From: Climacium dendroides | Taxonomy: Eukaryota; Streptophyta; Bryopsida; Hypnales; Climaciaceae | NCBI GenBank assembly: GCA_950106755.1 | Contig: OX467088.1 | Coordinates: 19,328,001 to 19,392,000 of the forward strand | Length of the DNA: 64,000 nt | Direction of reading: 5' to 3' | Shown here: piece after piece, positions 2,338 to 34,592 of the stretch | Position numbering within the stretch: position 1 is the stretch's first letter | Layout of the letters: each line of letters starts with the position of its first letter | The notes under the pieces: model-generated | What the model was told of the DNA's origin: nothing | Database searches by the model: none | What the model saw: only the letters and a program-made list of their open reading frames with translations | Program-made: the position numbers and the translations under genes

Positions 2338-3480
2338 ACTAATTATTCAATGGAGAATTTTTACTATTAATTATTTACTCAATTCCCTCATTGGATCTTA
2401 TTATAAGTTGAATATAACACTTTAGATTGACTTTAGATTTTTTTTCCCATAGATTTTTTGGATATTGTATAAATAAACTACACATGGATTTTCAAAGTCT
2501 TAAAAATAGTTGAATTTGAAAGTATTCCTAGACTCTCATCGATAGAGACAATACACTTTAAGCTAGAATGTGCTAGAGACAATACACTTTACGGTAGAAT
2601 TTTTAAAAAAAATTACAATTAGATGTACTTAACCAAATTAGTAGGGGCATATAATGGAGAGTTGAGCCTCAAATATAACACTCTCTTACAAACTTGAAGG
2701 ACATCATGAAACCTAGAAAATCTACAATTCTTTTAAAATGTGAATATTCCTTTTTCTTTTTCTAATTGTTGTGCATCATATGTCAATGAAAGTAACATAA
2801 GATGGATATTGAAAAATTCCAATAAATGTATGATAGAAATGTCATTTCAACTAGTTTGAGTCTTCAAAAGATTTGCCTCACATTCCAATAGTGAACTATA
2901 GGTATTATCAAACAAAAAAAAGTTGTACTAAGATAAAGTAAGTACAACAGTTTTTAATTTAATACTTGTATCCTACTTTCTAAAATAGTTTCAATGCACT
3001 AATTAAATGTCTCACCTAAATCTATGTACAAAAGTTACTCATTTAAAAATTGAGTTTTTATATTTCATCATCTAAATAGTTTTGGCCATTAGTTAGTGAA
3101 TTTTGGCTCCCATGGCAAAAGTGCATTGTTTGATGGAGAAGCTCACTAAATTCTAAGTCATTGAGATGCTTCAAATTTCATCAAATGTGAAAATCTTAAG
3201 TGTTAAAACTTTGTTCAATTTCTTATTTGGATGATTTCAAGTAAAATTATCATACTATAGACATTTCCAATAACTATGTAGTAATTACCAATATTTATCT
3301 GGCTCGTTATGTGGTTATAAATAAGAATGTGTAGGAATATAGATGAAATGTGGATATGATTGTTGATACAATGTTAATCATCTTTTACCTTCTGGTGATA
3401 ACTTGAATTAAAAATAGTATTTAAAACTCTGAACTTAAGAAAATAAGGATACTTGCTTGATTGAGGCCTTGGCACATTGA
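2338..3480. repeat. Outer, diverged left arm of the giant inverted repeat
   Basis: The reverse complement of this AT-rich stretch aligns by eye with 25174-26407, with many substitutions and indels. Shared blocks include the one around TTATTATAAGTTGAATATAA at left and its complement near 26340, and the block reading CATCCAAATAAGAAATTGAA near 25545. No gene is seen here. Its divergence contrasts with the apparently perfect inner arm that begins at 3481. Confidence 0.75.
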
Positions 3481-3653
3481 GCGACTATCCAGCCAGAAGA
3501 TTCTAATATCTACAAATACCGAAGATTTTCAAATGTAGCGGGCGGACTCCAAAGGTGCGAGAAGGCTCCCTTTCCGTCTCTTTTGCGAGGGAGCCTTGCT
3601 TCTCGCCGCTGCGTCGAAGCTCGCGGTCGCGCTGCCTCAGCAAGTCCGACACG

Positions 3654-4917
3654 ATGGTGACGCCTCTCGTCAAGCGCGATGTCATCAAGAAGCGCGTCAA
3701 GAAGTTCAAGCGCATGCAGTCGGACCGCAAAATTTGCGTCAAGGTCAATAAACAATCCATGCGCGCAATTGCCCTTGTTTCTTGAACACGAGCTTGTTTC
3801 TGCTGTTTCAGAACGATCTTCATTTTTCGTTTTCGGTGTTCCTGTCTGCCTTCCAATTCTCGTATTGATTAGGGTTGTGCTATTGCTTGTTTCGTGCTGT
3901 TTGGCCAGATTTGTCATTTAGGGCTAGAATTAGGGTTAGGGCGAGGGTTCTAACTTGGTGATGGTAATTGTTCTTTGGGTTCTCGGAGTTTTGCATCTGG
4001 GCTTTTGATTGTGTGGGAATTGAGACTTGGTAGTCGCGGTACCTGCAGCCTGTTGCTGTGGTGGGCGTGCTTTTAGTGTGGTTGTTTTAAGCATGAGGAT
4101 TTGGAATCTGATAGTGCGAGATGATGTGATTGTACGTGGCAGACGAACTGGAGGAGACCGAAGGGTATTGACTCGAGGGTTCGTCGTAAGTTCAAGGGTT
4201 GCACGTTGATGCCCAACATTGGTTACGGGTCGAACAAGAAGACGAGGCACGTGCTTCCCAGCGGTTTCGTGAAGTTTTTGGTCCACAATGTGAAGGATGT
4301 GGAGCTTCTGCTGATGCACAACAGGTGAGCAGTTCAATGTTTCTGTTGAAGTTTCTGCAGAGAGATGACCTGGAGGAAGCGGGTGTTGTCTGGGTTTTCT
4401 AGAGGGGTTCTTCTTATTGGATCAGCGAGGTTTGTGATGTAAGGCTGATGTGCAAGTGATGTGAAAAAGAATAGGGACATCATATATTCCCGCTAGGGAT
4501 GATGACGCATTCTGGGAATCTCTCTGATGCTATCAGTATTCCATGTTCTCTGTGAAGGATTTGTTTGTGGCGTGTGTACCACATCCGAGAACTATTTGAT
4601 GGATTTCTTATTTTTGTTATATCGACCTACCGCCGTTAGTCGTTGTCCCTATTTATTCTGCGCACTTTTCGTCATTGTCCACAGCTTTGCTTTTTGTGAG
4701 GGGGAGTGCCTTGTGCGTTAATTATCCAAGAGATTGCCTTTCTAACCTTGTAATTATGGTTGTTTTCTGCATTCAACGATGATGCAGGAAATACAGCGCT
4801 GAGATCGCACACAACGTGTCCACCTTGAAGAGGAAAGCTATCGTGGAGCGCGCAGCACAGTTGAACGTTGCGTTGACGAACGGCACTGCGCGTCTCCGCA
4901 GCCAAGAGGACGAATAG
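3654..4917 (+). CDS. RPL32: 60S ribosomal protein L32 (eL32), left-arm copy
   Basis: Exons 3654..3743, 4143..4324 and 4788..4917 join to 133 residues, the usual eL32 length. Family hallmarks are [17 protein letters not shown] near the N-terminus, [65 protein letters not shown] and the C-terminal ARLRSQEDE followed by TAG. eL32 is a structural protein of the large cytosolic ribosomal subunit. Exon 1 ends on an unusual donor (GTCAAT), while introns 2 and both acceptors look normal. The start ATG fits the family N-terminus; the frame is open further upstream without a better start. It converges with the alcohol dehydrogenase gene, whose stop is about 410 bp downstream. An identical copy lies in the right arm. 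Confidence 0.93.
3865..3950 (+). promoter_or_regulatory. Telo-box-like motifs in eL32 intron 1
   Basis: ATTAGGGTTG occurs near 3868 and TTAGGGTTAGGGCGAGGGTT near 3930, both inside the first intron. Telo boxes (AAACCCTA or its complement) are common in promoters and first introns of plant ribosomal protein genes. They fit a role in coordinated expression of translation genes, though the role is inferred. The same motifs recur in mirror orientation at about 24704-24789. They are too short and isolated to be telomeric DNA. Confidence 0.45.
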
Positions 4918-5326
4918 ATAACGATTTAGCTCATTTTTTGGTAGTTTTCTCATTGTACTTTATTGAGGTGGAAAGATACCACTTTATTATCTCAATGAGG
5001 AAGGCACATTGCTGCAAACGTTCCCAAATGGGTCGCTTTCTTCTGTATTTTACCAATGTGCTGTACTCTCGTGTTTGGAATGGAGCGCTTGGGATTCATC
5101 GGCATCCTTAAACTTTGCAGCTCACATTTTTTTGCTTAGATTACTCCCCGTGTAACTTGCAAGTTAAATTTGAATGTCAAATCGTGTACTGAAGTTGCGA
5201 GTTCCTAAAACCATGGGGTCGTTGTCAAGAGTTGGGGTTGCATATCTTTTAGTGCTGAATGCAGAGTTCTAATGTGGTGGCTTTTCAATTCGCAAGGACG
5301 AACCCCTGTATGACTTGAAATTTACA

Positions 5327-8300
5327 CTACGAGTTGTAGTCCATGATACAGCGCAAGCATTCTCCAGCATCCAAGAGCTGGACAGCTTTGTTAATTTCCG
5401 AGAATGGCAAAGTGTGCGTCACGTAGTGGTCCAGATTGATCACCTGTACAGGAGTTGAGGGAGGTAAGCACGACGTCAGTGCAATTCAAGGAGGCAGAAA
5501 GCAACACATGAGCGGAGTATTTAAAGTTCTGCAACGTACTCCGTCGATACACTTGTCGACCAGCTGAGGCAGGTGAGTTTTCGCTTTAAAGCCCCCGAAG
5601 AGTCCCGAGGTCCATGTCCTGCCCAACAGTAAGCTTTTTGGATGAAACGAAACGAGATGTCGGGAATCCACCAAGCCTAGGATCACTGCAACTCCACCAT
5701 CCTGGAAGGTAATCGAAGTCCAACACAACTTCAGTTCTGTTCACTCAACATGTGGGCCCTGGACCCAATTCCGAAGAACCACAGCATCGCTACAAAAAAT
5801 GTACCACGTTTTCGATTCTGACAAGAAATAAGCTACATTGCATAATAAGCTTTGAGAGTTTGAAACGATGCAAATCCATGGTTGGGACTAGAGACTCTTG
5901 GTGAAATTGATGTTTACCGGTCTGCTGCATTCCATGGCCTTGGAAATGATGTCAGGGTTGCCTGTACAGTCGAAACTGAAGTCCACACCTCCGTTGGTCA
6001 TTTCCCTGGTGACCTCTTCCAAGGGCTTCTCAACAGCGGTTGAGTTTAAGATGTCGGTGAGTCCAAACTCTTTGCCTGCTCACCATTTTTCTGTTTTCAG
6101 ACTTTAAGGAACAAGGTGGAAGAGCTGCGGCTTGTATCAGGGAAGAATGTGGAGTGTACCTTTTTCGAGCTTGCTTTCAAGTCGATCTATTCCGATGATG
6201 CGAGATGCCCCTGCTATCTTCGCTCCTTCAACCACCTGTGACCAAACACATCAAAGAACACGGTGCGCGTAAGCATTTCACCCCGAATATTTCCTCGCAA
6301 CATAACAGGGTAGTAGACTAAAATATCAGGAAGTTTTAAACAGCACCATCAAGAGAACCTGGTCGTGAATCATGATCACTGTAATTTCAAAGAGATATCC
6401 CCATAAATCATGGTGAGAACTTCCTCTTATGAAGCTGTTTTAAAGTTCCTGAAATAGTCTAGTTTCACTAAAACCCCAGTCAAAACATAACATTCTTGAT
6501 TTGTAGTAGCATGGCATTGTTTGGGTACGTCATCATCGAAGACTTATTATAGAAAAGTCATGCGAAATTGGAACAAACTGAGCATAATTAAAGAAAACGC
6601 ACTTTCCGATGCGAGACAGTAACTTATTGCCTTGAGGACCTCCCACTGGTTCAAATTGAGCTCAACTTTGCAAAACGAGGTATCAGAGATTCTTTTGAAA
6701 GGGTACTCCACAAGAGTTCTCTAGAATGTACGTTAAGATTGCACTCAGGCTTGAGATTCTTACAGCGAGTCCAATGGTGCCCAATCCGAACACGGCCACT
6801 GTGGAATTGGCTGTCACGTTGGCGATGTTCCAAGCGGATCCAAGTCCAGTTGAGACCCCACATCCCAGCAGACACACTTTCGACAGATCGGCCTTGGGGT
6901 TCACTTTGGCCACACTGGCTTCGTCCAGGACTGTGTACTGGCTGAACACGGAAGTGTTGAAGAAGTGCGAGATGGGCGTGCCGTCCTCCACGCGGGAGAA
7001 TCGGGACGTCTGGTCCGAGACCATGACGCCGCTGTCGAAGTGCTGCAGAAACACGTCGCAGATGTTGCTCTTGGATCCGCTGCGGCATCTCGGGCATTTC
7101 TGACAGTCCGACTGCCACACCGGGATCACCTTGTCGCCCGGCTTCAGGTTTGTTATGGCGCTCCCCACACTCTCCACAATACTTCACCTCACCAAAATCA
7201 CTCCCGGGTTTAGATTGTCTGTTTAATTTGCTCTTGTTGTCAAATGGAAGAGGATGCCAACGCAACCAAAGAAAGTGCTAGTTGGAAGCAGTGAGCAAAA
7301 GTTATGATGGATGTTTTAGATTGTATTCAATGAGTGAATTCCTTTTAGAAGGGTGGTGAGGAAGCTCCTCAAGAAAATTTATGAAGTGCATATTCAACCG
7401 CAAGACCATATCCGATTCTTGCAAAGTCGATTTCAGAATGGAAATACTCCACCATGGCGGCACTCACCCGGCTCCTTCATGGCCCATAATGCGCGGAAAG
7501 AGTTGACCCTGGTTCTGCTCAGACACCAACAAACTGCTATTGAAAAAAAATGCGAGCTTGCATCATAAATTCAGTCAACAATCAAACATCAGCATTATTT
7601 TTATTTTGTGATCCGTAATTGACGAATGTCAATTACCCGTTCTACACAAGGCATGTAAGTGTACGCAATAGGGTCCCCTTCCCAACTGCGGCCAGGTCAC
7701 TTGTACTGTGACATTTTTTTGGCTGAAATGTTATGCGTGCAGAGATAGGGGAAGCATTGGGGAAGATGACACAATTGGGAAAGACTCGCTTGGGTACGCC
7801 TATCTTACGAACACTCAGAATCTCTACAACTCGAAAAATTTAACCTAAAATCTTAGAAGAAAGGAACAAATCGTTATCGAATGCAAACTACGTAAAATCT
7901 GTTTGAGTGTTTGTTTCAGGTCATCTGTCAATAAAAACTTTCACAGCTTTTGCATATTTTATCTAAATAACAGGCTATTTAATGGGCTCTTCGGTGCGTT
8001 GAAATCCTCTTCCATTTTTTAACAAGAACATACAACATTCAATCCAATAATGGGAACCAAGCTTAGCATCCAAAATGAGGATTTCAAATTGCCCATATCC
8101 AATCACTTGATCATGTTGTATGATCTGTTAGGGGTAGCACTTGCTTTCTAAGTCTACAAGGCTTAGCTACCGGTAGTCACCCTACCCAAACATTTTATTC
8201 ATGTTGTTCCTAGAGTTAGAGTTACTCTTCCTTTTCCGTTTATTTCTGCATGATCTAAGTCAAGCGCACTGAACAATCGTTTCCAGTGGTGTTTCTGGGT

Positions 8301-9191
8301 GCAACGATTCTCGATGGGTGCACATTCCTTCTGTGCAAACACACTGTCTGGATTGCTACGTGAAATGTACACAATGCATTCATTTAAAAAGTGGGCGTTC
8401 TAAGTGCACATTCCTTTCGGTCGAACGCAACGCAACGCAACTTGTGAAGCAGGAAATGAAGGGACAAATATAATTGGAAGTACCTTGCCCTTCAAGTAGA
8501 AGAGATCACTCTGGCAAACAGCAGCGTACATCATCTTGACCCGGACCTCCGAAGGCCCAGGAGGCGCCACATGAATGTCCTCGAACGAAAGCGGCGCGTC
8601 CACCTCGTATGCAACAGCAGCTGCTTGCATGAAATTAAAAATTAAAAATTAAAAAGAAAAAACTTTTAAATCTTCAATGCCAGCACTTCAAATGGACCTA
8701 CGCTACCTGCACGTTATTGCGACCGATCTGGACATATCCTTTCCTACACAATGTATAGCTTCTATTCCTGGTTTGGGTACACCTATTTTCAACAATTCAA
8801 AAATTGATAGTTCCTTCATACGGTGTCCCAAAACTACCAGCTACGAGAATCTGGAATCCGCTTCTTCTTGAGTCCAGATTCAACAAAACCCTACATCATT
8901 ATACTTGGACAGTTAGTTTCATAATAAGGAACCATGTTCAAACTCGTATTCAGACGATTCTCAGTGCCGTCACCTTAGTTTCTCAAACTTGGGATGATCA
9001 TACTAAAGCTCAAGACAACTGTGACTACAAGACGTGGTGGCAGTTCCATTCCCATTTCTAGTACGAACTTTATTCTTCAATCACTGCAACAAATGGGACT
9101 AGAATGAATGAGTCAATTGAATTGAATTGGTACCCTTGCAAGTGATGACTTCGCCGGCAGTGCTCGCAAAGCCGTTAGCTTGATGCGCCAT
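5327..9191 (-). CDS. Zinc-dependent alcohol dehydrogenase (MDR family), left-arm copy
   Basis: Eight exons on the minus strand: 9134..9191, 8484..8620, 7468..7514, 6764..7181, 6160..6235, 5918..6075, 5540..5701 and 5327..5443, giving 390 residues. It is the exact mirror of 19463..23327, where the domain and residue details are given. Exon 1 (MAHQANGFASTAGEVITCK) is separated by a 513-bp intron and supplies the family N-terminus. The ATG within exon 2 (MQAAAVAYE) is only an apparent start, since splicing exon 1 to CTGCTGTT gives the family-like CKAAVAYE. The gene is convergent with eL32. Protein is predicted identical to the right-arm copy, so expression or essentiality cannot be told apart between them. 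Confidence 0.9.
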
Positions 9192-10144
9192 AGCTCAACA
9201 GAATATGATTGACGGACTGAAGTCAATTGAAAAATGGGAACTGATGAAACGTGCTAGCTGCGGATGCAACAACTGCGAAATCAGAGGACTTTGGAACTGC
9301 CTGGGGCTTTCTTGTGAAACGAACGGTGAGGGCGAGCATTTATGAATTCTGATTCAATAAGTCGTGACTGGCGGAACTGGTGAAACATGCGTGTCTCGGC
9401 TGCATTCAATCCATTATGAACTCATGTCTGTATGTCTGCTGGGATTATGGGACTGTAGCTAAGACTGAGACACTGCGACAGCTGTACGACGGTGGGGCTG
9501 CTAATAAATCTGTCGTCCCCGCAGTAAGTGCTAAGCTAATTAAGCACTTCACTCAGCTCGGATTTCAGCGCATTAAGTTTCTGACAATTGAGAGAGTCAG
9601 TGTACGAGTCCCCCCCGGAGAAATTCAGACAAACCCATCCATATAAGTTATGCGGATTTGTTTTATTATCACTACTAGCTACTAACAGTAGAATTCACGC
9701 CTTGGAAGGCATACCTTACATCAACGTTTGTAGCAAAGCTTCAGCATTTCCCAAACCTTGTTTTGTTTGGGAAATGAAGTGTCGAAACGGAAATTGGATG
9801 AGCCAGGGGACGTGATTATTCTAGGCATGTCACACACATGGGTCCTCCCAACAATCCCAAGAGCAGTACAGACAGTACTGCAGCACTGACAGCATCACGG
9901 GCCGTTTGCAAATCCTCCGAGACATGGCTTCGTCGTGTGCTTCAACATTGTGCGGACTGTCCACTCTCGTGGGCGGCTGTTGCTGGCAACGCGTGTTATA
10001 TGTGTGATTACTTGCCGTTGGAAGGTGCCACTTCACAACGCTCACCAGGCGTTAATGCGTTATCATCAAGACGTACGTCATGCCGTGGTCAGAGAATCCT
10101 GTGCGCCTTTGGCTAGTTGACCTCAGAGTTCGAATTTCTCACGA

Positions 10145-10224
10145 CCTCCTAAAATGTAGACTTTTTGTACATGTTGCTTTTTCATAGTCTTCATCGATGT
10201 ACAAACCTTGTACATTTTAGGAGG
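10145..10224. repeat. 80-bp foldback element
   Basis: The terminal inverted repeats CCTCCTAAAATGTA and TACATTTTAGGAGG are followed inward by further complementary TTTGTACAT/ATGTACAAA segments, so most of the 80 bp can form a hairpin. The size and structure resemble a minimal MITE. No target-site duplication was clear. The mirror copy is at 18430-18509. Confidence 0.6.
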
Positions 10225-10800
10225 AGGGCGATTTTTGAGCCCTATGTCATTTCTAACTTCAAAATTTTATAATTAATTAATTCCACAAAGCTCCAAATAA
10301 ATATGAAACGTCTTGGGTTAGATGGCAATTCCACTTGTCTTTTAAGGAAAACGTACTGGAAAATATATCAAGAAGCTTCGCCTCCTCAAACTTTCTTAGG
10401 TGGGCGAGTTATGGACTTGTTACCTTAGTTCTCTTTGCAGGGTTTGACAAATAATAGTGAGCAGATCCATTAAGGTAGACAAGCCTATTACCACTCCAAT
10501 TTGCAATCTAAATATCTTGGGTCAACTCCAAGAGGGGCACATATTTTTTTTCATTTTGAGAGGTGTGTGCTTGTTTCATGAATCAAACCCAAATGGGATT
10601 ATAATTTCTTGATTAAAATTATAATTTCTTTGAATTTCTAAAGTGGTGTGCCCAAAGCTTACAAAGTCACTCATAGAGAGGAGTCATAAACATCCCATGA
10701 ACAACCCATGAACAACCTTGTGTACTCACCAATAAATGATTGACATATTACCCCTTGTTAAAAAAAAAGAACCAATTTGAATGTTTTTTGGATGGAATTG

Positions 10801-10886
10801 GGGTCAAAAATAGGGGACGAAATTGGACAATGAATGGAATTGGGCTAGTCTACCTTAGTCCAATTTGGAGCTCTATTTTTGGATCC
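10801..10886. repeat. Imperfect inverted repeat of about 86 bp
   Basis: GGGTCAAAAATAGGGGACGA at the left end pairs imperfectly with the complement of TCTATTTTTGGATCC at the right end, with AATTGGA/TCCAATT inside. This is a plausible decayed MITE. The mirror copy is at 17768-17853. Confidence 0.4.
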
Positions 10887-11363
10887 AGTTTAATTATGTT
10901 GTATAATGTAAATTTTATCGTATTGAGTGTGCAATTAGAACTCAAAGTTTTTAAATTGGAGATGATAGGTTTGGAATTGGATTGGAAAGTCATTATTTAA
11001 TGGATTTATTGAACTTACCCATGTGACTTCTACACATAGCAAAAGGTTCATTCATTGTTTCTTTGTACAAAGAGGTGCTTGTGGCTTATCATTCAAGTAC
11101 GCCTAAGTAAGGAGGACATTAATATGAGCACTACCAAACTGTACATAGAGAGCCAAAAATAATTCAAATTTTTTCTCCCAAAGTAAATCACAATAAAAAA
11201 AAATATGAACTTTGAAAAGCTAATGTAGGATAAAAAAATTCATCAATTCACAAGCTATAAAGTGCATTGGAAAGATGGTGAAGTCCAAAATACAATATGA
11301 TAAGCTTACATTACAAAATGATAGTATCATACAATAATTTTGAAAAAAAAACATAATGCAATG

Positions 11364-12348
11364 TCTACCATCTAATGTAATACTACCTTTTACTCAAATA
11401 ATTCCTTGCATTTTGTCAAATATACCTCTAATGATGGTATGGAGTTGCTCTAAAGGTATTGGAATCTATATTGATTGAATAGTTTGCACCATTCCCTCTT
11501 TATTTCTTAGTCTACAACAATACTGCAATGAATCTTTGACAATCTTCCATATTTTCTCTATGGAGTTCAAGTCCAGAAAGTTTGAGGGTCAAATTAGTTA
11601 TGTCACACTACAAGCTATTTCCACTACAGTGGAAGGAACCTACAGTGGACTAAATACCATCTTCTACAAATGTCAACTGCTTAAAATAATTGTGCAAAAA
11701 TTACATCCAATTAATGTTCCCTCATAAACAAGAGTCACAAAACCACTTGTTGTCTTTCTCTATAATAACAAAAGGGCATTTATCAAAGCCACTAAAATGC
11801 ACCCTAAACCATCACCAAACTATAGTCAAACTTAAAAGATGGCACTATACAAATCCATGCATATCTTTCATATTATTTTTGCTACATTCTAATTTGCCTT
11901 GAATTCTTACCAATTTCAAATGGCAACTCATTTAACCAAATCACATTGCTCCAATCCTCAAAATTCCAACTTTTATGAATTGAGGTAAATGTAGACCTAT
12001 GTAGACTTTAGACTTGTCATTAAAATAGGATTTTTTGGGTGCAATGTAATTTTTGAAGCCCCTCTTATGATGGTTTGATACTTCCAATAATGGTTGTCTT
12101 CTATTGTTGATAACAAAACGTGACAACATCCAAGCATCACAATTAGACTTTTTTAATGCCTAATTCATTGATTTTTCAACAACCTCTACACTTCCACAGA
12201 CCTTCCAATTTGTCAAAACACAAAAAATGGGCAAGCATGGAACATTTAGGACTTCTCCAATGTCCTTGCATGTCATCCAACCCTTATGCATCTCTGTAGT
12301 ACAATTCTTTTTCTTAGTACTCAGCATTCTATACATCATGGTGTTCAA
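11364..12348 (-). pseudogene. Tc1-like (DD34E-type) transposase relic, left-arm copy
   Basis: Exact mirror of the relic at 16306-17290, where the motifs are described. It is read on the minus strand and is broken by stops and at least one frameshift. It sits inside the near-identical arm, so it was present before the arms were duplicated or last homogenised. Confidence 0.82.
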
Positions 12349-13963
12349 CCTAACTTCTCAAGAGCCTACAAAAAGTGGTCAGAGTCTTGCAAGGCCAAAC
12401 AACAACTTTCACCTATACAAGTTACCTTCTTGTAATATTGTTCATTGTAGTACAATGAAATTTGTTGTTCCACACTTTGGACCTTTAAAGCATATGAAGT
12501 GCAATGAACAATCGTCATAGAAGCATTACAAATGGCCTACCAATCAAAGAACCATTTCTATAAACATGACAACAAATTTTAATAACTCTCTAATTCATGA
12601 CATTTTTACACAATTAATGAGTGGAGATTAATGACAACTAATGGCTTGACAAATTGCAATTGGTGGAAGGGCGGTTCAACTCGAAGGAGCTAGATTTAGC
12701 TGAACAAGTGCCTTTTCATGAACAACTAATTCCATAAGTACAACAATTATTCTTGGAAACTATACTATCATGTTGTCATGAAATAACTGTAGCATGAAGT
12801 TGGCAAGTTGAGTACCCATGACAATTGAATACCTGACGATGTCCATTGATTCAGGAACTGAAGGTAGTAGATTGGCAAGATTCTAAAGCTGTCCATCTGA
12901 ATTCAAGCTGTACAAATTATGATATGCAAACATCAGAAGTTTTGAGTGTTGTGCAAGTTGGATCAGATATAGAGAAGTGAGAAAAGATGGGGAAATAGAG
13001 GATAATGTTGCAGACTCTCCACAGATCACAGAGCATTATGATCTCCAAGGGAACTTTACAAACAAAACAAAATCGGAAAAAATAAAGACGGAAGAGAATC
13101 CTTTCCAAAAGAGTTTGTAGTGAATATAATATTGCTATAGAGTGTTGATATATTTGAAAGATAGAGATATGCAATTGCAACAAAATATGTTCCAAATATA
13201 TCAACATTCTATGGCTATAATTAAATTTTTTAAGCATCTAGACATATTTGAAATGCTTATATGTGATTCACAATAGTCAGATTGTACTAGGATAGATTGG
13301 GTTGATCGACCTAATTTGAGTAGTTGTTATGGTTTTCTAATTGAAAAATAGGCAACATTTACAAGGTATCACAAAAAGTAGACAATCAGAGGAAGCTATT
13401 GCTTACATTTTTACCATAGAGTCTCCAAAACGTGGTCTATCACATATCCATATCCATTAGCATTTCTCTACACATATGTAGTAGGCCACTAGACCTAGAA
13501 ACTAGCCCTTATGTCTATGTATTAGAAATATCTTTCTAAAAAACAAGTATTTCTTTCTCTGTAGTTGCTAATTCTTGAAACAAATTTTGATGAAATTTGC
13601 ATCTTTGACATAGATTTTGATATGTTTAAAATAGCCTTGTTAATAAAATTCAAATTGCTTGTATTTTCTATGTTATGTAGAAGTTTTCAAAAACATATTT
13701 TTTGCAATGTGGCATTGAAATGACATACTAAGGATTGCAACAAAGGCACATTGGTTGGATAAAAAGAGGTGGCTAGATGAACATGGATGAGAAATAAGAG
13801 AATGAGTACATCCATCTATCAGACCTTGATGGACAAACCCTAACCCCTCCGTGGATGGAGGACAAACTAGAGAGGGGGCTGTGCCGAGACTCTCTTTGGG
13901 GAGTATTGCGTCTCGCCGCTTTGACAAAGCTGGCGGTCGCGCTGCCTCAGCAAGTTTGACACG

Positions 13964-15449: not shown

Positions 15450-16305
15450 CTATGCACTTTTAGTATCTTGCTCAGTGTATTTTGATGAGGTGGAAAGTTT
15501 CCACTTCATTATTTTAATGAAGAAGCTACATCACTGCAAACTCTTTTGGAAAGGATTCTCTTCCGTCTTTATTTTTTCCGATTTTGTTTTGTTTGTAAAG
15601 TTCCCTTGGAGATCATAATGCTCTGTGATCTGTGGAGAGTCTGCAACATTATCCTCTATTTCCCCATCTTTTCTCACTTCTCTATATCTGATCCAACTTG
15701 CACAACACTCAAAACTTCTGATGTTTGCATATCATAATTTGTACAGCTTGAATTCAGATGGACAGCTTTAGAATCTTGCCAATCTACTACCTTCAGTTCC
15801 TGAATCAATGGACATCGTCAGGTATTCAATTGTCATGGGTACTCAACTTGCCAACTTCATGCTACAGTTATTTCATGACAACATGATAGTATAGTTTCCA
15901 AGAATAATTGTTGTACTTATGGAATTAGTTGTTCATGAAAAGGCACTTGTTCAGCTAAATCTAGCTCCTTCGAGTTGAACCGCCCTTCCACCAATTGCAA
16001 TTTGTCAAGCCATTAGTTGTCATTAATCTCCACTCATTAATTGTGTAAAAATGTCATGAATTAGAGAGTTATTAAAATTTGTTGTCATGTTTATAGAAAT
16101 GGTTCTTTGATTGGTAGGCCATTTGTAATGCTTCTATGACGATTGTTCATTGCACTTCATATGCTTTAAAGGTCCAAAGTGTGGAACAACAAATTTCATT
16201 GTACTACAATGAACAATATTACAAGAAGGTAACTTGTATAGGTGAAAGTTGTTGTTTGGCCTTGCAAGACTCTGACCACTTTTTGTAGGCTCTTGAGAAG
16301 TTAGG

Positions 16306-17290
16306 TTGAACACCATGATGTATAGAATGCTGAGTACTAAGAAAAAGAATTGTACTACAGAGATGCATAAGGGTTGGATGACATGCAAGGACATTGGAGA
16401 AGTCCTAAATGTTCCATGCTTGCCCATTTTTTGTGTTTTGACAAATTGGAAGGTCTGTGGAAGTGTAGAGGTTGTTGAAAAATCAATGAATTAGGCATTA
16501 AAAAAGTCTAATTGTGATGCTTGGATGTTGTCACGTTTTGTTATCAACAATAGAAGACAACCATTATTGGAAGTATCAAACCATCATAAGAGGGGCTTCA
16601 AAAATTACATTGCACCCAAAAAATCCTATTTTAATGACAAGTCTAAAGTCTACATAGGTCTACATTTACCTCAATTCATAAAAGTTGGAATTTTGAGGAT
16701 TGGAGCAATGTGATTTGGTTAAATGAGTTGCCATTTGAAATTGGTAAGAATTCAAGGCAAATTAGAATGTAGCAAAAATAATATGAAAGATATGCATGGA
16801 TTTGTATAGTGCCATCTTTTAAGTTTGACTATAGTTTGGTGATGGTTTAGGGTGCATTTTAGTGGCTTTGATAAATGCCCTTTTGTTATTATAGAGAAAG
16901 ACAACAAGTGGTTTTGTGACTCTTGTTTATGAGGGAACATTAATTGGATGTAATTTTTGCACAATTATTTTAAGCAGTTGACATTTGTAGAAGATGGTAT
17001 TTAGTCCACTGTAGGTTCCTTCCACTGTAGTGGAAATAGCTTGTAGTGTGACATAACTAATTTGACCCTCAAACTTTCTGGACTTGAACTCCATAGAGAA
17101 AATATGGAAGATTGTCAAAGATTCATTGCAGTATTGTTGTAGACTAAGAAATAAAGAGGGAATGGTGCAAACTATTCAATCAATATAGATTCCAATACCT
17201 TTAGAGCAACTCCATACCATCATTAGAGGTATATTTGACAAAATGCAAGGAATTATTTGAGTAAAAGGTAGTATTACATTAGATGGTAGA
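16306..17290 (+). pseudogene. Tc1-like (DD34E-type) transposase relic, right-arm copy
   Basis: Translating all three plus frames gives ordered fragments of one Tc1-like transposase. A helix-turn-helix-like part (GWMTCKDIGEVLNVP, then NWKVCGSVE) is followed by a second HTH-like part (LSRFVINNRRQPLLEV). The DDE domain follows: DWSNVIWLNELPFEIGKNSR, then SLVMV*GAF at 16836-16860, then after a one-base shift SGFDKCPFVIIEKDN, VEDG, and PSNFLDLNSIEKIWKIVKD at 17066-17120. A degenerate C-terminus (KGSITLDGR) ends near 17290. Multiple stops and at least one frameshift make it dead. At the first catalytic Asp position (usual WxDE) the sequence reads WLNE, an Asn; the Asp of VEDG and the Glu of NSIE remain. 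Terminal inverted repeats and the TA target duplication were not found. A full family member is about 340 residues, so the coding part is nearly full length. Confidence 0.85.
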
Positions 17291-17767
17291 CATTGCATTA
17301 TGTTTTTTTTTCAAAATTATTGTATGATACTATCATTTTGTAATGTAAGCTTATCATATTGTATTTTGGACTTCACCATCTTTCCAATGCACTTTATAGC
17401 TTGTGAATTGATGAATTTTTTTATCCTACATTAGCTTTTCAAAGTTCATATTTTTTTTTATTGTGATTTACTTTGGGAGAAAAAATTTGAATTATTTTTG
17501 GCTCTCTATGTACAGTTTGGTAGTGCTCATATTAATGTCCTCCTTACTTAGGCGTACTTGAATGATAAGCCACAAGCACCTCTTTGTACAAAGAAACAAT
17601 GAATGAACCTTTTGCTATGTGTAGAAGTCACATGGGTAAGTTCAATAAATCCATTAAATAATGACTTTCCAATCCAATTCCAAACCTATCATCTCCAATT
17701 TAAAAACTTTGAGTTCTAATTGCACACTCAATACGATAAAATTTACATTATACAACATAATTAAACT

Positions 17768-17853
17768 GGATCCAAAAATAGAGCTCCAAATTGGACTAAG
17801 GTAGACTAGCCCAATTCCATTCATTGTCCAATTTCGTCCCCTATTTTTGACCC
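17768..17853. repeat. Imperfect inverted repeat, mirror copy
   Basis: Mirror of 10801-10886. Confidence 0.4.
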
Positions 17854-18429
17854 CAATTCCATCCAAAAAACATTCAAATTGGTTCTTTTTTTTTAACAAG
17901 GGGTAATATGTCAATCATTTATTGGTGAGTACACAAGGTTGTTCATGGGTTGTTCATGGGATGTTTATGACTCCTCTCTATGAGTGACTTTGTAAGCTTT
18001 GGGCACACCACTTTAGAAATTCAAAGAAATTATAATTTTAATCAAGAAATTATAATCCCATTTGGGTTTGATTCATGAAACAAGCACACACCTCTCAAAA
18101 TGAAAAAAAATATGTGCCCCTCTTGGAGTTGACCCAAGATATTTAGATTGCAAATTGGAGTGGTAATAGGCTTGTCTACCTTAATGGATCTGCTCACTAT
18201 TATTTGTCAAACCCTGCAAAGAGAACTAAGGTAACAAGTCCATAACTCGCCCACCTAAGAAAGTTTGAGGAGGCGAAGCTTCTTGATATATTTTCCAGTA
18301 CGTTTTCCTTAAAAGACAAGTGGAATTGCCATCTAACCCAAGACGTTTCATATTTATTTGGAGCTTTGTGGAATTAATTAATTATAAAATTTTGAAGTTA
18401 GAAATGACATAGGGCTCAAAAATCGCCCT

Positions 18430-18509
18430 CCTCCTAAAATGTACAAGGTTTGTACATCGATGAAGACTATGAAAAAGCAACATGTACAAAAAGTCTACAT
18501 TTTAGGAGG
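18430..18509. repeat. 80-bp foldback element, mirror copy
   Basis: Mirror of 10145-10224, with CCTCCTAAAATGTA at the left end and TACATTTTAGGAGG at the right. Confidence 0.6.
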
Positions 18510-19462
18510 TCGTGAGAAATTCGAACTCTGAGGTCAACTAGCCAAAGGCGCACAGGATTCTCTGACCACGGCATGACGTACGTCTTGATGATAACGCATT
18601 AACGCCTGGTGAGCGTTGTGAAGTGGCACCTTCCAACGGCAAGTAATCACACATATAACACGCGTTGCCAGCAACAGCCGCCCACGAGAGTGGACAGTCC
18701 GCACAATGTTGAAGCACACGACGAAGCCATGTCTCGGAGGATTTGCAAACGGCCCGTGATGCTGTCAGTGCTGCAGTACTGTCTGTACTGCTCTTGGGAT
18801 TGTTGGGAGGACCCATGTGTGTGACATGCCTAGAATAATCACGTCCCCTGGCTCATCCAATTTCCGTTTCGACACTTCATTTCCCAAACAAAACAAGGTT
18901 TGGGAAATGCTGAAGCTTTGCTACAAACGTTGATGTAAGGTATGCCTTCCAAGGCGTGAATTCTACTGTTAGTAGCTAGTAGTGATAATAAAACAAATCC
19001 GCATAACTTATATGGATGGGTTTGTCTGAATTTCTCCGGGGGGGACTCGTACACTGACTCTCTCAATTGTCAGAAACTTAATGCGCTGAAATCCGAGCTG
19101 AGTGAAGTGCTTAATTAGCTTAGCACTTACTGCGGGGACGACAGATTTATTAGCAGCCCCACCGTCGTACAGCTGTCGCAGTGTCTCAGTCTTAGCTACA
19201 GTCCCATAATCCCAGCAGACATACAGACATGAGTTCATAATGGATTGAATGCAGCCGAGACACGCATGTTTCACCAGTTCCGCCAGTCACGACTTATTGA
19301 ATCAGAATTCATAAATGCTCGCCCTCACCGTTCGTTTCACAAGAAAGCCCCAGGCAGTTCCAAAGTCCTCTGATTTCGCAGTTGTTGCATCCGCAGCTAG
19401 CACGTTTCATCAGTTCCCATTTTTCAATTGACTTCAGTCCGTCAATCATATTCTGTTGAGCT

Positions 19463-22400
19463 ATGGCGCATCAAGCTAACGGCTTTGCGAGCACTGCCGG
19501 CGAAGTCATCACTTGCAAGGGTACCAATTCAATTCAATTGACTCATTCATTCTAGTCCCATTTGTTGCAGTGATTGAAGAATAAAGTTCGTACTAGAAAT
19601 GGGAATGGAACTGCCACCACGTCTTGTAGTCACAGTTGTCTTGAGCTTTAGTATGATCATCCCAAGTTTGAGAAACTAAGGTGACGGCACTGAGAATCGT
19701 CTGAATACGAGTTTGAACATGGTTCCTTATTATGAAACTAACTGTCCAAGTATAATGATGTAGGGTTTTGTTGAATCTGGACTCAAGAAGAAGCGGATTC
19801 CAGATTCTCGTAGCTGGTAGTTTTGGGACACCGTATGAAGGAACTATCAATTTTTGAATTGTTGAAAATAGGTGTACCCAAACCAGGAATAGAAGCTATA
19901 CATTGTGTAGGAAAGGATATGTCCAGATCGGTCGCAATAACGTGCAGGTAGCGTAGGTCCATTTGAAGTGCTGGCATTGAAGATTTAAAAGTTTTTTCTT
20001 TTTAATTTTTAATTTTTAATTTCATGCAAGCAGCTGCTGTTGCATACGAGGTGGACGCGCCGCTTTCGTTCGAGGACATTCATGTGGCGCCTCCTGGGCC
20101 TTCGGAGGTCCGGGTCAAGATGATGTACGCTGCTGTTTGCCAGAGTGATCTCTTCTACTTGAAGGGCAAGGTACTTCCAATTATATTTGTCCCTTCATTT
20201 CCTGCTTCACAAGTTGCGTTGCGTTGCGTTCGACCGAAAGGAATGTGCACTTAGAACGCCCACTTTTTAAATGAATGCATTGTGTACATTTCACGTAGCA
20301 ATCCAGACAGTGTGTTTGCACAGAAGGAATGTGCACCCATCGAGAATCGTTGCACCCAGAAACACCACTGGAAACGATTGTTCAGTGCGCTTGACTTAGA
20401 TCATGCAGAAATAAACGGAAAAGGAAGAGTAACTCTAACTCTAGGAACAACATGAATAAAATGTTTGGGTAGGGTGACTACCGGTAGCTAAGCCTTGTAG
20501 ACTTAGAAAGCAAGTGCTACCCCTAACAGATCATACAACATGATCAAGTGATTGGATATGGGCAATTTGAAATCCTCATTTTGGATGCTAAGCTTGGTTC
20601 CCATTATTGGATTGAATGTTGTATGTTCTTGTTAAAAAATGGAAGAGGATTTCAACGCACCGAAGAGCCCATTAAATAGCCTGTTATTTAGATAAAATAT
20701 GCAAAAGCTGTGAAAGTTTTTATTGACAGATGACCTGAAACAAACACTCAAACAGATTTTACGTAGTTTGCATTCGATAACGATTTGTTCCTTTCTTCTA
20801 AGATTTTAGGTTAAATTTTTCGAGTTGTAGAGATTCTGAGTGTTCGTAAGATAGGCGTACCCAAGCGAGTCTTTCCCAATTGTGTCATCTTCCCCAATGC
20901 TTCCCCTATCTCTGCACGCATAACATTTCAGCCAAAAAAATGTCACAGTACAAGTGACCTGGCCGCAGTTGGGAAGGGGACCCTATTGCGTACACTTACA
21001 TGCCTTGTGTAGAACGGGTAATTGACATTCGTCAATTACGGATCACAAAATAAAAATAATGCTGATGTTTGATTGTTGACTGAATTTATGATGCAAGCTC
21101 GCATTTTTTTTCAATAGCAGTTTGTTGGTGTCTGAGCAGAACCAGGGTCAACTCTTTCCGCGCATTATGGGCCATGAAGGAGCCGGGTGAGTGCCGCCAT
21201 GGTGGAGTATTTCCATTCTGAAATCGACTTTGCAAGAATCGGATATGGTCTTGCGGTTGAATATGCACTTCATAAATTTTCTTGAGGAGCTTCCTCACCA
21301 CCCTTCTAAAAGGAATTCACTCATTGAATACAATCTAAAACATCCATCATAACTTTTGCTCACTGCTTCCAACTAGCACTTTCTTTGGTTGCGTTGGCAT
21401 CCTCTTCCATTTGACAACAAGAGCAAATTAAACAGACAATCTAAACCCGGGAGTGATTTTGGTGAGGTGAAGTATTGTGGAGAGTGTGGGGAGCGCCATA
21501 ACAAACCTGAAGCCGGGCGACAAGGTGATCCCGGTGTGGCAGTCGGACTGTCAGAAATGCCCGAGATGCCGCAGCGGATCCAAGAGCAACATCTGCGACG
21601 TGTTTCTGCAGCACTTCGACAGCGGCGTCATGGTCTCGGACCAGACGTCCCGATTCTCCCGCGTGGAGGACGGCACGCCCATCTCGCACTTCTTCAACAC
21701 TTCCGTGTTCAGCCAGTACACAGTCCTGGACGAAGCCAGTGTGGCCAAAGTGAACCCCAAGGCCGATCTGTCGAAAGTGTGTCTGCTGGGATGTGGGGTC
21801 TCAACTGGACTTGGATCCGCTTGGAACATCGCCAACGTGACAGCCAATTCCACAGTGGCCGTGTTCGGATTGGGCACCATTGGACTCGCTGTAAGAATCT
21901 CAAGCCTGAGTGCAATCTTAACGTACATTCTAGAGAACTCTTGTGGAGTACCCTTTCAAAAGAATCTCTGATACCTCGTTTTGCAAAGTTGAGCTCAATT
22001 TGAACCAGTGGGAGGTCCTCAAGGCAATAAGTTACTGTCTCGCATCGGAAAGTGCGTTTTCTTTAATTATGCTCAGTTTGTTCCAATTTCGCATGACTTT
22101 TCTATAATAAGTCTTCGATGATGACGTACCCAAACAATGCCATGCTACTACAAATCAAGAATGTTATGTTTTGACTGGGGTTTTAGTGAAACTAGACTAT
22201 TTCAGGAACTTTAAAACAGCTTCATAAGAGGAAGTTCTCACCATGATTTATGGGGATATCTCTTTGAAATTACAGTGATCATGATTCACGACCAGGTTCT
22301 CTTGATGGTGCTGTTTAAAACTTCCTGATATTTTAGTCTACTACCCTGTTATGTTGCGAGGAAATATTCGGGGTGAAATGCTTACGCGCACCGTGTTCTT

Positions 22401-23327
22401 TGATGTGTTTGGTCACAGGTGGTTGAAGGAGCGAAGATAGCAGGGGCATCTCGCATCATCGGAATAGATCGACTTGAAAGCAAGCTCGAAAAAGGTACAC
22501 TCCACATTCTTCCCTGATACAAGCCGCAGCTCTTCCACCTTGTTCCTTAAAGTCTGAAAACAGAAAAATGGTGAGCAGGCAAAGAGTTTGGACTCACCGA
22601 CATCTTAAACTCAACCGCTGTTGAGAAGCCCTTGGAAGAGGTCACCAGGGAAATGACCAACGGAGGTGTGGACTTCAGTTTCGACTGTACAGGCAACCCT
22701 GACATCATTTCCAAGGCCATGGAATGCAGCAGACCGGTAAACATCAATTTCACCAAGAGTCTCTAGTCCCAACCATGGATTTGCATCGTTTCAAACTCTC
22801 AAAGCTTATTATGCAATGTAGCTTATTTCTTGTCAGAATCGAAAACGTGGTACATTTTTTGTAGCGATGCTGTGGTTCTTCGGAATTGGGTCCAGGGCCC
22901 ACATGTTGAGTGAACAGAACTGAAGTTGTGTTGGACTTCGATTACCTTCCAGGATGGTGGAGTTGCAGTGATCCTAGGCTTGGTGGATTCCCGACATCTC
23001 GTTTCGTTTCATCCAAAAAGCTTACTGTTGGGCAGGACATGGACCTCGGGACTCTTCGGGGGCTTTAAAGCGAAAACTCACCTGCCTCAGCTGGTCGACA
23101 AGTGTATCGACGGAGTACGTTGCAGAACTTTAAATACTCCGCTCATGTGTTGCTTTCTGCCTCCTTGAATTGCACTGACGTCGTGCTTACCTCCCTCAAC
23201 TCCTGTACAGGTGATCAATCTGGACCACTACGTGACGCACACTTTGCCATTCTCGGAAATTAACAAAGCTGTCCAGCTCTTGGATGCTGGAGAATGCTTG
23301 CGCTGTATCATGGACTACAACTCGTAG
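19463..23327 (+). CDS. Zinc-dependent alcohol dehydrogenase (MDR family), right-arm copy
   Basis: Exons 19463..19520, 20034..20170, 21140..21186, 21473..21890, 22419..22494, 22579..22736, 22953..23114 and 23211..23327 give 390 residues with consistent intron phases. The family oxidises alcohols (or reduces aldehydes) with NAD(P) in the cytosol. Likely catalytic-zinc ligands are Cys55 (VCQSD), His77 (GHEGAG) and Cys188 (GCGVSTG). Structural-zinc cysteines appear as CQKCPRC...C at 107, 110, 113 and 122; the last spacing is one residue longer than usual. The Rossmann motif is FGLGTIGLA, followed by IIGID, where the Asp suggests NAD preference. The C-terminal half keeps GGVDFSFDCTGN, FGGFKAKT and the terminal ECLRCIM. 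It resembles plant ADH-like and class III enzymes; exact substrate cannot be told. It converges with eL32 (right copy), about 410 bp between stops. Confidence 0.92.
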
Positions 23328-23736
23328 TGTAAATTTCAAGTCATACAGGGGTTCGTCCTTGCGAATTGAAAAGCCACCACATTAGAACTCTGCATTCAGC
23401 ACTAAAAGATATGCAACCCCAACTCTTGACAACGACCCCATGGTTTTAGGAACTCGCAACTTCAGTACACGATTTGACATTCAAATTTAACTTGCAAGTT
23501 ACACGGGGAGTAATCTAAGCAAAAAAATGTGAGCTGCAAAGTTTAAGGATGCCGATGAATCCCAAGCGCTCCATTCCAAACACGAGAGTACAGCACATTG
23601 GTAAAATACAGAAGAAAGCGACCCATTTGGGAACGTTTGCAGCAATGTGCCTTCCTCATTGAGATAATAAAGTGGTATCTTTCCACCTCAATAAAGTACA
23701 ATGAGAAAACTACCAAAAAATGAGCTAAATCGTTAT

Positions 23737-25000
23737 CTATTCGTCCTCTTGGCTGCGGAGACGCGCAGTGCCGTTCGTCAACGCAACGTTCAACTGTGCT
23801 GCGCGCTCCACGATAGCTTTCCTCTTCAAGGTGGACACGTTGTGTGCGATCTCAGCGCTGTATTTCCTGCATCATCGTTGAATGCAGAAAACAACCATAA
23901 TTACAAGGTTAGAAAGGCAATCTCTTGGATAATTAACGCACAAGGCACTCCCCCTCACAAAAAGCAAAGCTGTGGACAATGACGAAAAGTGCGCAGAATA
24001 AATAGGGACAACGACTAACGGCGGTAGGTCGATATAACAAAAATAAGAAATCCATCAAATAGTTCTCGGATGTGGTACACACGCCACAAACAAATCCTTC
24101 ACAGAGAACATGGAATACTGATAGCATCAGAGAGATTCCCAGAATGCGTCATCATCCCTAGCGGGAATATATGATGTCCCTATTCTTTTTCACATCACTT
24201 GCACATCAGCCTTACATCACAAACCTCGCTGATCCAATAAGAAGAACCCCTCTAGAAAACCCAGACAACACCCGCTTCCTCCAGGTCATCTCTCTGCAGA
24301 AACTTCAACAGAAACATTGAACTGCTCACCTGTTGTGCATCAGCAGAAGCTCCACATCCTTCACATTGTGGACCAAAAACTTCACGAAACCGCTGGGAAG
24401 CACGTGCCTCGTCTTCTTGTTCGACCCGTAACCAATGTTGGGCATCAACGTGCAACCCTTGAACTTACGACGAACCCTCGAGTCAATACCCTTCGGTCTC
24501 CTCCAGTTCGTCTGCCACGTACAATCACATCATCTCGCACTATCAGATTCCAAATCCTCATGCTTAAAACAACCACACTAAAAGCACGCCCACCACAGCA
24601 ACAGGCTGCAGGTACCGCGACTACCAAGTCTCAATTCCCACACAATCAAAAGCCCAGATGCAAAACTCCGAGAACCCAAAGAACAATTACCATCACCAAG
24701 TTAGAACCCTCGCCCTAACCCTAATTCTAGCCCTAAATGACAAATCTGGCCAAACAGCACGAAACAAGCAATAGCACAACCCTAATCAATACGAGAATTG
24801 GAAGGCAGACAGGAACACCGAAAACGAAAAATGAAGATCGTTCTGAAACAGCAGAAACAAGCTCGTGTTCAAGAAACAAGGGCAATTGCGCGCATGGATT
24901 GTTTATTGACCTTGACGCAAATTTTGCGGTCCGACTGCATGCGCTTGAACTTCTTGACGCGCTTCTTGATGACATCGCGCTTGACGAGAGGCGTCACCAT
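23737..25000 (-). CDS. RPL32: 60S ribosomal protein L32 (eL32), right-arm copy
   Basis: Minus-strand exons 24911..25000, 24330..24511 and 23737..23866, the mirror of 3654..4917, encode the same 133 residues, with the same introns and the same unusual GTCAAT donor. Both copies look intact. Because they are on opposite strands, 18.8 kb apart, read-through transcripts of one arm would be fully complementary to the other. Confidence 0.93.
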
Positions 25001-25173
25001 CGTGTCGGACTTGCTGAGGCAGCGCGACCGCGAGCTTCGACGCAGCGGCGAGAAGCAAGGCTCCCTCGCAAAAGAGACGGAAAGGGAGCCTTCTCGCACC
25101 TTTGGAGTCCGCCCGCTACATTTGAAAATCTTCGGTATTTGTAGATATTAGAATCTTCTGGCTGGATAGTCGC

Positions 25174-26407
25174 AAGGCCTCAACCAACAAACTTGAAAGC
25201 CAAGTACCCTTGTCTAAATTTTTAACATCGGACTGGTGACCGTGAAAATTAACCCTTTTGGAGCTGTATGACATCATCAAATTTAGAAAAAACAAAAATA
25301 ATCATTGGAAGTCAAACTACTGTGGAAGATTTCTCCTTTCCACCCCTAATTCCAAAGATGAATAGTTGCATTTCTATCGTATATAAGAGAATTCCTTGTC
25401 ATCCATCGGACACAAAATGTCCACCTTGACGTTCAAAGGTTAAGTTTAGAGTTTCAAATACTATTTTTAATTTAAATTGTCACCAAAAGGTATAGGATAA
25501 TTAACATTATATCAACAATCATATCATAATTGTACTTGAAATCATCCAAATAAGAAATTGAACAAAGTTTTAACACTTAAATTTTCACATTTGATGAAAT
25601 TTGAAGCATCTCAATGATTTAGAATTTAGTCAGCTTCTCCATCAAACAATGCACTTTTGCCATGCTAGCCAAAGATTCATCAACTAGTGGCCAAAACAAT
25701 TTGGATGATGAGATATAAAAGCTAAATTTTTTTAATAATTACCTTTTGTATATAGATTTAGGTGAGACATTTAATTAGTGCATTGAAATTGTTTTAGAAA
25801 GTAGGATACAAGTATTAAATTAAAAAACTATTATACTCACTTTTTCTTAGTACAACTTTTTTTGTTTGAAAATACCTTCAGCTCACTATTGGAATGTGAG
25901 GCAACCCTTTTGAAGACTCAAACTAGTTGAAATGATATTTCTATCACACATTTCATTGACACACAATGCACAACAATTAGAAGAAAAAAAATGGAAATTT
26001 ATAGTCATAATTGCTTCCTCTATTCACATTTTGAAAGAATTGTAGAATTTTTAGGTTTCATGTTGTCATTCAAGTTTGTAATTTTATTTTATTTTTAAAT
26101 ATTACATTTAAAATTTAATCTATTCTTTTACATTTTTTCCTTCTTTTATTTTATTTTAATTCTACCCTAAAGTGTATTGTTTCTAGCACATTCTAGCCTA
26201 AAGTGTATTGTCTCTATTCATGAGAGTTTAGGGGTGCATTCAAATATAACTATTTTCAAGACTTTGAAAATCCATGTGTAGTTTATTCATACAATACCCA
26301 AATAATCTATGAGAATAAAATCTAAAGTCAATCTAAAGTGTTATATTCAACTTATAATAAGATCCAATGAAAGAATTGGGTAAATAATTAATAGTAAAAA
26401 TTCTTGG
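25174..26407. repeat. Outer, diverged right arm of the giant inverted repeat
   Basis: Diverged counterpart of 2338-3480. Compared with the left side it lacks about 10 bp right at the boundary and carries an extra segment of roughly 220 bp (about 25200-25435) that belongs to a dispersed repeat. No gene is seen. Confidence 0.75.
25220..25435 (+). repeat. Dispersed repeat, copy 1
   Basis: The stretch from the segment GACTGGTGACCGTGAAAATTAA through GAAGTCAAACTACTGTGGAAGA to GTCATCCATCGGACAC matches, with substitutions and indels, the minus strand at about 41330-41560. It interrupts the outer right arm, so it arrived there after the outer arms formed, or was lost from the left. Confidence 0.65.
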
Positions 26408-29027: not shown

Positions 29028-29099
29028 GACGGAGGCGCTCTTTTGCCATTCTCCGCAGGGCACGCTCGCAGAGTTGCAGCCCCAGCAGCAGCAGCAGCG

Positions 29100-29432
29100 A
29101 TGGCGCCATCCGTGGTGAGCAACGGCATCGCCGTGGGTCTTCACCGAGGTCACCAAGTCACCAAGCGCGACATCGCCAAGCGCCCCTCCGCGAGCAAGGG
29201 CAAGCTCGGCAAGCGCACTTCGCTGGTGCGCAAGCTCATCCGCGAGGTCGCCGGCTTCGCCCCCTACGAGAAGCGCATCACGGAGCTGCTGAAGGTGGGC
29301 AAGGACAAGCGCGCCCTGAAGGTCGCCAAGCGGAAGTTGGGCACCCACTTGCGGGCCAAGCGCAAGAGAGAGGAGATGACCGGCGTCCTGCGCAAGATGC
29401 GCGCCACCGGAGGAGCCGAGAAGAAGAAGTAA
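29100..29432 (+). CDS. RPL36: 60S ribosomal protein L36 (eL36), copy a
   Basis: A single uninterrupted frame of 110 residues with the family landmarks [54 protein letters not shown] and [17 protein letters not shown], ending in a basic EKKK. eL36 is a small basic protein of the large cytosolic ribosomal subunit. The ATG follows a GCAGCAGC leader and fits the family N-terminus ([14 protein letters not shown]). The coding part has no intron; an intron in the leader is possible, since a CTCCGCAG-type acceptor precedes it. Codon choice is markedly GC-rich against AT-rich flanks. Copy b at 43337 differs by one base. Confidence 0.96.
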
Positions 29433-33991: not shown

Positions 33992-34403
33992 TCCAAAAAC
34001 TTCGGTTGGTTATAAAGGTTTGGAATTGAGACTACAAAAGTTCAAAGACAGGTTAGTGAGCGAAGGTAAGAAAGGTTACGAAGGTTTGCAACAACAATTT
34101 TATAGCTTGCACATGTATTTGTAGCAACAAATGGTTTCAACTCCACACCTACAAGCTATGGAGTTGCAACCACTTTTTGTGGTTATGGTGCTGTTTTGAA
34201 CTACAGTTTCAACAAGAATAACAAGTTTAACCTCCTAACTACAAATAAGACCAAATTATCAAAGTTTTGTTCTATAATTAGCACAAAACTTGAGAACTTT
34301 TCACACTAATTCATAGCTATTGAACAAAGCACAAATAAACAACACGTTTCTTGCAAAAATCAATAAGGATCATTTCAAGACTAAGGTGAGGAGACAACTT
34401 ACA

Positions 34404-34592
34404 AGAGACAATCGGCCTTACAACAAACCACCTTCGGAATGAACGAAACCACGCTGCAAACTACGCTCAAAGACAATCGGCGTTAGAAGACCTTCAGAAT
34501 GAGCTCGCAACCGGGCCACGTGACTACTTAAGAGACAATCGCCTTTGGGGGACCTTCGAAATGACCACAGCCGGGTCGGGTGACTACACATG
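34404..34592. repeat. Degenerate tandem repeat of about 61 bp, three units
   Basis: Each unit contains AGACAATCGgCcTT, then ACCTTCgGAATGA, then ACCGGGcCacGTGACTAC or a decayed version. It lies some 410-600 bp upstream of the E2-F-box start, so it may be in or near its promoter. Confidence 0.65.

Follow-up and report, generated by a model that had tools for sequence, protein, structure and literature searches.

Gene content and architecture of the locus

Copies of the ribosomal-protein gene eL32 (RPL32) lie in opposite orientation in the two arms of a large palindrome in the moss Climacium dendroides. We analyzed the locus in a window of 64,000 nucleotides (C37:19328001-19392000) from an assembly of 412,615,100 bases in 123 contigs, in which contig C37 measures 31.75 Mb. 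Each arm carries eL32, a C/D-box snoRNA of the snoR44/J54 type in the second intron of eL32, and on the opposite strand a class-III-like alcohol dehydrogenase (ADH) gene (Table 1). The exon borders of eL32 were set by eye, guided by splice sites and by similarity to plant eL32 chains of solved structure. Farther inward, between 8.6 and 13.1 kb, scanning two plus frames and three minus frames of the arm revealed no protein family.

The spacer between the arms contains an eL32 pseudogene. Its snoRNA stretch differs from that of the arm at three of 85 sites, against 82 of 393 in intron 1 (Fisher p = 3.3e-5), and falls below the Rfam gathering score. Judged by this pattern, the pseudogene may still be a host for the snoRNA.

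Table 1. Features of the palindrome and its surroundings in window coordinates; negative positions lie upstream of the window.
Feature	Position	Strand	Remarks
Upstream partner of the older duplication	-32183 to -20710 (C37:19295817-19307290)	inverted	found by self-comparison
Outer flank of left arm A	2354-3438	+	aligned blocks about 91% identical to the right flank; identity with copy C about 94-96%
Left arm A	3481-13123	+	9642/9643 bases identical to right arm B
eL32 (RPL32), arm A	3654-4917	+	exons 3654-3743, 4143-4324, 4788-4917; 133-aa open frame
snoR44/J54 snoRNA, arm A	4449-4533	+	in eL32 intron 2; Rfam RF00357, 51.8 bits (gathering 48)
Class-III-like ADH, arm A	5335-8558	-	putative gene; approximate limits from exon matches
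Spacer	13124-15530	+	contains the eL32 pseudogene
eL32 pseudogene	13899-15541	+	direct to arm A gene; lacks start and stop; 12 coding bases fewer
Right arm B	15531-25173	-	inverted copy of arm A; self-BLAST and alignment
eL32 (RPL32), arm B	23737-25000	-	mirror of 3654-4917
snoR44/J54 snoRNA, arm B	24121-24205	-	Rfam search
Right-hand junction	25174-25439		roughly 40 bp homologous to the left side but diverged, followed by about 220 bp that the left flank lacks; boundaries set by eye
Outer flank of right arm B	25440-26404	-	self-BLAST, alignment and block counts
Older, larger inverted duplication block	30411-40244		93-96% at 30411-36494; 81-84% at 36508-40244
UBC-domain gene	32021-34009	-	single exon; open frame of 662 codons from stop to stop; open in upstream copy too

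Self-BLAST of the window aligns arm A (3481-13123) with arm B (25173-15531) in inverted orientation and without gaps over 9643 bp, with one mismatch at 13118/15536; position p of arm A mirrors position 28654 - p of arm B. The structure thus combines long inverted arms of at least 99% identity with a short unique spacer, here of 2407 bp. A sequence-only reading of the window had described near-identical inner arms of about 9.64 kb inside homologous outer flanks diverged by substitutions and indels, and both parts of this description are borne out. Its edges at 3481/25173 and 13117/15537 are exact to the base if the last six bases, from the mismatch onward, are excluded. The extent it gave, 2338-26407, proved too narrow for the locus, which also includes a third partial copy and a larger, older inverted duplication around it; the palindrome forms the core of this multi-copy inverted structure.

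Flanks and edges of the arms

Homology between the two sides extends beyond the arms in four blocks separated by indels, namely 2820-3254 (91%), 2354-2601 (91%), 2686-2746 (92%) and 3353-3438 (88%). Counted over the well-aligned stretches 2480-2601, 2690-2741 and 2863-3254, flank A differs from flank B at 49 of 564 sites, a Kimura two-parameter (K2P) distance of 0.093. Were the arms as diverged as the flanks, the 9637 arm bases preceding position 13118 should show about 837 differences; none is observed (Fisher p = 1.5e-61 for the difference in rate). With collinear flanks at a K2P of 0.093 and a value of 0 in the compared part of the arms, the duplication is older than the identity of the arms implies.

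The two edges of the arms differ in kind. At 3481/25173 the flank homology is collinear right up to the edge and is broken by a stretch of about 220 bp present only in B (about 25216-25439; limits by eye); a piece of this junction, 25294-25422, resembles 41332-41464. A conversion tract that halts near such heterology behaves as expected. At 13117/15537, self-BLAST and alignment detected no homology beyond the edge into the spacer, and a conversion edge was rejected there for this reason; the position is the end of detectable arm homology, that is, the end of the repeat. Conversion stopping at sharp edges, as originally proposed for both positions, therefore holds for 3481/25173, the sole conversion edge of the two, and not for the inner edge. 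Both sides of the inner edge carry an 11-bp near-match, GTTTGyAGTGA, whose right-hand copy is part of the eL32 pseudogene, at its 3' end. The lone arm mismatch sits inside this near-match and may predate the palindrome.

A third copy and the older inverted duplication

Self-comparison of 134 kb around the window uncovered a partial copy, here called C, about 15 kb upstream at -16517 to -12315. C is inverted relative to the left arm, carries the outer flank and stops inside the ADH gene, ending at arm position 6980. In the compared 134 kb, no pair other than A-B, A-C and B-C reaches both 300 bp and 97% identity.

A genome search with the eL32 region of the arm returned 12 matches: the two arms, copy C (C37:19313176-19314782), the spacer pseudogene (two matches), contig C35 (three), contig C1 (two) and contig C41 (two weak ones). 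The search table printed 100% for copy C; by alignment, C differs from the arms at six sites over 3494-5100. The eL32 gene on C35 gives three exon matches without stops. It was considered as an outgroup for the arm and dropped, since a 10-kb stretch of C35 shares only the eL32 gene and short matches with this locus. The fragment C1:35405901-35406243 has internal stops and no intron at the border of exons 2 and 3, and is probably a processed pseudogene.

The larger inverted pair that surrounds the palindrome provides an internal control. Over 30619-36497 its copies differ by 0.8-10.6% per 250-column window, and they share no identical run above 169 bp, so that the long identity is local to the palindrome core. 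The center of the outer pair lies about 10 kb from that of the palindrome. An insertion of about 19 kb on the left side, carrying C, would fit this offset, although the fit is no proof. The surroundings do not form a simple mirror image, and the upstream match to 40269-41314 falls inward of the upstream block, between that block and C.

Conflicting relationships among the copies

Copy C permits a comparison of relationships on the two sides of the outer edge. These counts exclude gapped columns as well as flank positions that lie outside the blocks, 3255-3480 among them. In the flank blocks, sites at which two copies agree against the third divide as 13 for A=B, 28 for A=C and 18 for B=C, with one further site showing three letters. 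Inside the part of the arm that C possesses (3494-6632), the corresponding counts are 39, 0 and 0, and the share of A=B sites differs between flank and arm with a Fisher p of 1.9e-16. Outside the edge A groups with C, inside it groups with B, and the majority for A=C in the flank is modest (28 of 59; one-sided p = 0.017 against one third). Agreement of A and B throughout the arm part is inevitable for identical arms, and the conflict of relationships therefore rests on the flank. Besides these substitutions, indels shared by A and C in the flank, judged by eye, support their grouping. A and C differ at nine of 226 sites over 3255-3480, a stretch that is largely missing or altered in B.

Within the 3.1 kb of arm shared with C, the 39 differences between C and the arms are clustered. 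A run of 1051 identical sites between A and C (3499-4549), likewise shared with arm B, covers the start of eL32; from there to 6632, 38 of 2083 sites set C apart from the arms. A run of this length was reached by none of 20,000 permutations, and by none for the arm part alone. Restricting the analysis to non-coding sites of 3499-5330 left an A-C run of 694 sites, reached by 20 of 20,000 permutations, and within 4550-6632 the longest A-C run, 452 sites, was reached by 69 of 20,000. This distribution suggests that the first part of eL32 has been further exchanged among A, B and C. Given the exact tract common to C and both arms, the eL32 copies at this locus probably evolve in concert. Purifying selection was rejected as the cause of the identity, since introns and intergenic DNA are identical too and the non-coding A-C run alone spans 694 sites.

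Probable gene conversion and competing explanations

We consider it likely that an old inverted duplication had its inner 9.64 kb recently overwritten by non-reciprocal copying from arm to arm, most likely from A into B. The starting point would have been a duplication whose arms and outer flanks had already diverged, and C would have split off before the copying between A and B. Repair of a double-strand break with the opposite arm as template, that is, ectopic gene conversion, could then have copied sequence from the inner end of the arm homology out to 3481/25173, where the B flank has its private sequence and indels. In this account B would once have had a diverged 9.64-kb arm of its own. 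Gene conversion of an old inverted repeat, as the sequence-only reading had it, remains the best-supported view and is strengthened by copy C from outside the window; what changed are the nature of the inner edge, the extent of the locus and the comparison with sex chromosomes, to which nothing here points.

The direction of copying is less certain than the event itself. Had B overwritten A, arm A would be expected to differ from C by about 0.082, the K2P distance between the flanks of B and C. The actual value inside the arm is 0.012, which points to A as the donor. This argument is weakened by the divergence between A and C, which is 4-6% in the flank but 1.8% at 4550-6632; additional exchange between these two copies, or a difference in constraint, may be responsible. 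Copying from A into B is still the probable direction.

Break-induced copying could produce a similar arrangement and seems to us rather unlikely. Here the B flank would originally have adjoined only a short, C-like eL32 copy. A break would have been repaired by invasion of arm A, with 9.64 kb copied before a switch at GTTTGyAGTGA ended the process at the inner edge. In that case the flanks would be old but the palindrome recent. That such short copies exist is proven by C, which ends at arm position 6980. The inner edge does lie within the short stretch where arm A nearly matches the pseudogene's 3' end, the mismatch there can be read as pre-existing, and the rearranged upstream side indicates that other rearrangements have occurred here. 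However, an old fold-back junction would also leave a short near-match. Moreover, the outer pair would share the center of the palindrome if about 19 kb were inserted on the left, which suggests a long, old inverted duplication instead.

The main remaining risk to the gene conversion reading is an assembly artefact in which the assembler or polisher used one arm twice. Assemblers can collapse or copy sequences such as an exact 9.6-kb repeat. Arms truly about 9% apart, however, would not be merged by a long-read assembler, and C, only about 15 kb away, stays distinct. The 134 kb examined contain no N. A fold-back read artefact was rejected, as it would leave neither the unique 2.4-kb spacer nor the diverged collinear flanks. 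A heterozygosity check of the arms is inapplicable if the sequenced moss was haploid. On these grounds we infer that the assembly is correct at the locus and regard an error at the palindrome as unlikely.

A single recent inverted duplication, with the likeness of the flanks due to unrelated copies of a dispersed repeat, would yield identical arms directly but is very improbable. It was rejected because the flanks are far more diverged than the arms. Flank and arm are also collinear at both edges and in copy C, and within the 134 kb compared, every flank match of 200 bp or longer joins two of the copies A, B and C.

Age and chromosomal setting

The absence of differences at 9637 sites sets a 95% upper bound of 0.00031 per site, about 300-fold below the divergence of the flanks. 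Silent sites in mosses change at a rate near 9e-9 per site per year. On this rate, a rough estimate puts the separation of the flanks at about 5 million years and the homogenization at less than about 20,000 years ago. The locus also serves as a warning that dates derived from divergence can be seriously in error for moss gene duplicates.

A neighboring neutral invertase gene offers a hint at the chromosomal setting. Among the best 120 of 4185 matches, the closest named relative of its product is M758_6G057700 of Ceratodon purpureus (87%), followed by Sphagnum (79%). The tag presumably denotes Ceratodon chromosome 6 and as such speaks weakly for an autosomal locus; we see no sign that the palindrome sits on a sex chromosome.

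Relation to known palindromes

The best-known palindromes maintained by conversion lie on sex chromosomes, and they are attributed to the absence there of a partner for recombination. Those of the mammalian X and Y are often much larger than the one described here. According to the excerpted text of PMC8981503, gene conversion between their arms keeps identity above 99%, which parallels our case. In contrast, they reside on sex chromosomes and are conserved between primates, whereas the moss palindrome needs just one recent homogenization.

The closest published structure, going by excerpts of Zhou et al. (2020, PMC7023750), is the palindrome pair on the W chromosome of the willow Salix purpurea. 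There, arm stretches more than 99% identical lie beside less similar ones, the spacer of W.P1 is given as 2.6 kb in the text and 3586 bp in a table, and conversion was inferred from old age combined with identity. Both systems have inverted arms, a short spacer and an extra partial copy upstream of an arm, the Salix pre-arm resembling our copy C. They differ in that the willow palindromes lie in a female-specific sex-determining region, whereas the moss locus has no shown sex linkage, carries housekeeping genes (eL32 and ADH) and has shorter arms. The tests differ as well, since the willow study made use of a sister species and ours relies on a conflict of copy relationships. In the excerpted part of PMC8000587, palindromes are mentioned only for willow and in general.

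In mosses, near-identical tandemly arrayed genes of Physcomitrella have been suggested to undergo concerted evolution by conversion (Lang et al. 2008, cited in PMC3045890), and frequent homologous recombination in this moss is mentioned in excerpts of PMC3045890 and PMC3729371. These arrays share with our locus highly similar neighboring gene copies in a moss and the suggestion of conversion. Unlike them, the Climacium copies are inverted; their outer flanks are discordant, and the edge of the tract can be measured. A literature search of titles and abstract openings found no moss palindrome with conversion, which does not prove absence. The locus is a new case, in a moss, of a known process, and the evidence that gene conversion acted here is good. 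It agrees with the view that nearby gene copies in mosses are kept similar by efficient homologous recombination, and a clean case that involves housekeeping genes and has an independent, polarizing third copy would make it possible to ask whether palindrome conversion requires a sex chromosome. More tentatively, inverted gene copies on ordinary moss chromosomes might serve as mutual conversion templates, a palindrome system without a sex chromosome in which ongoing exchange between arms and satellite copy would keep eL32, with its three local open-frame copies, identical; we hold this to be possible but doubtful.

Other features of the surroundings

The UBC-domain gene within the older duplication has its upstream copy at about -24546. 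The 23 relatives of its protein comprise one from a moss, two from Selaginella, one from a fern, 11 from arbuscular mycorrhizal fungi (38-42% identity), five from other fungi and three unnamed. This composition suggests an old transfer between fungi and early land plants. Two eL36 genes on the plus strand (29060-29458 and 43300-43695) lie in direct order 14 kb apart and are 96.5% identical over 399 bp; with the eL32 copies nearby, several ribosomal-protein gene copies are thus clustered at the locus. Farther upstream, a tandem-like repeat array with units about 79-93% alike extends from -44012 to -41490.
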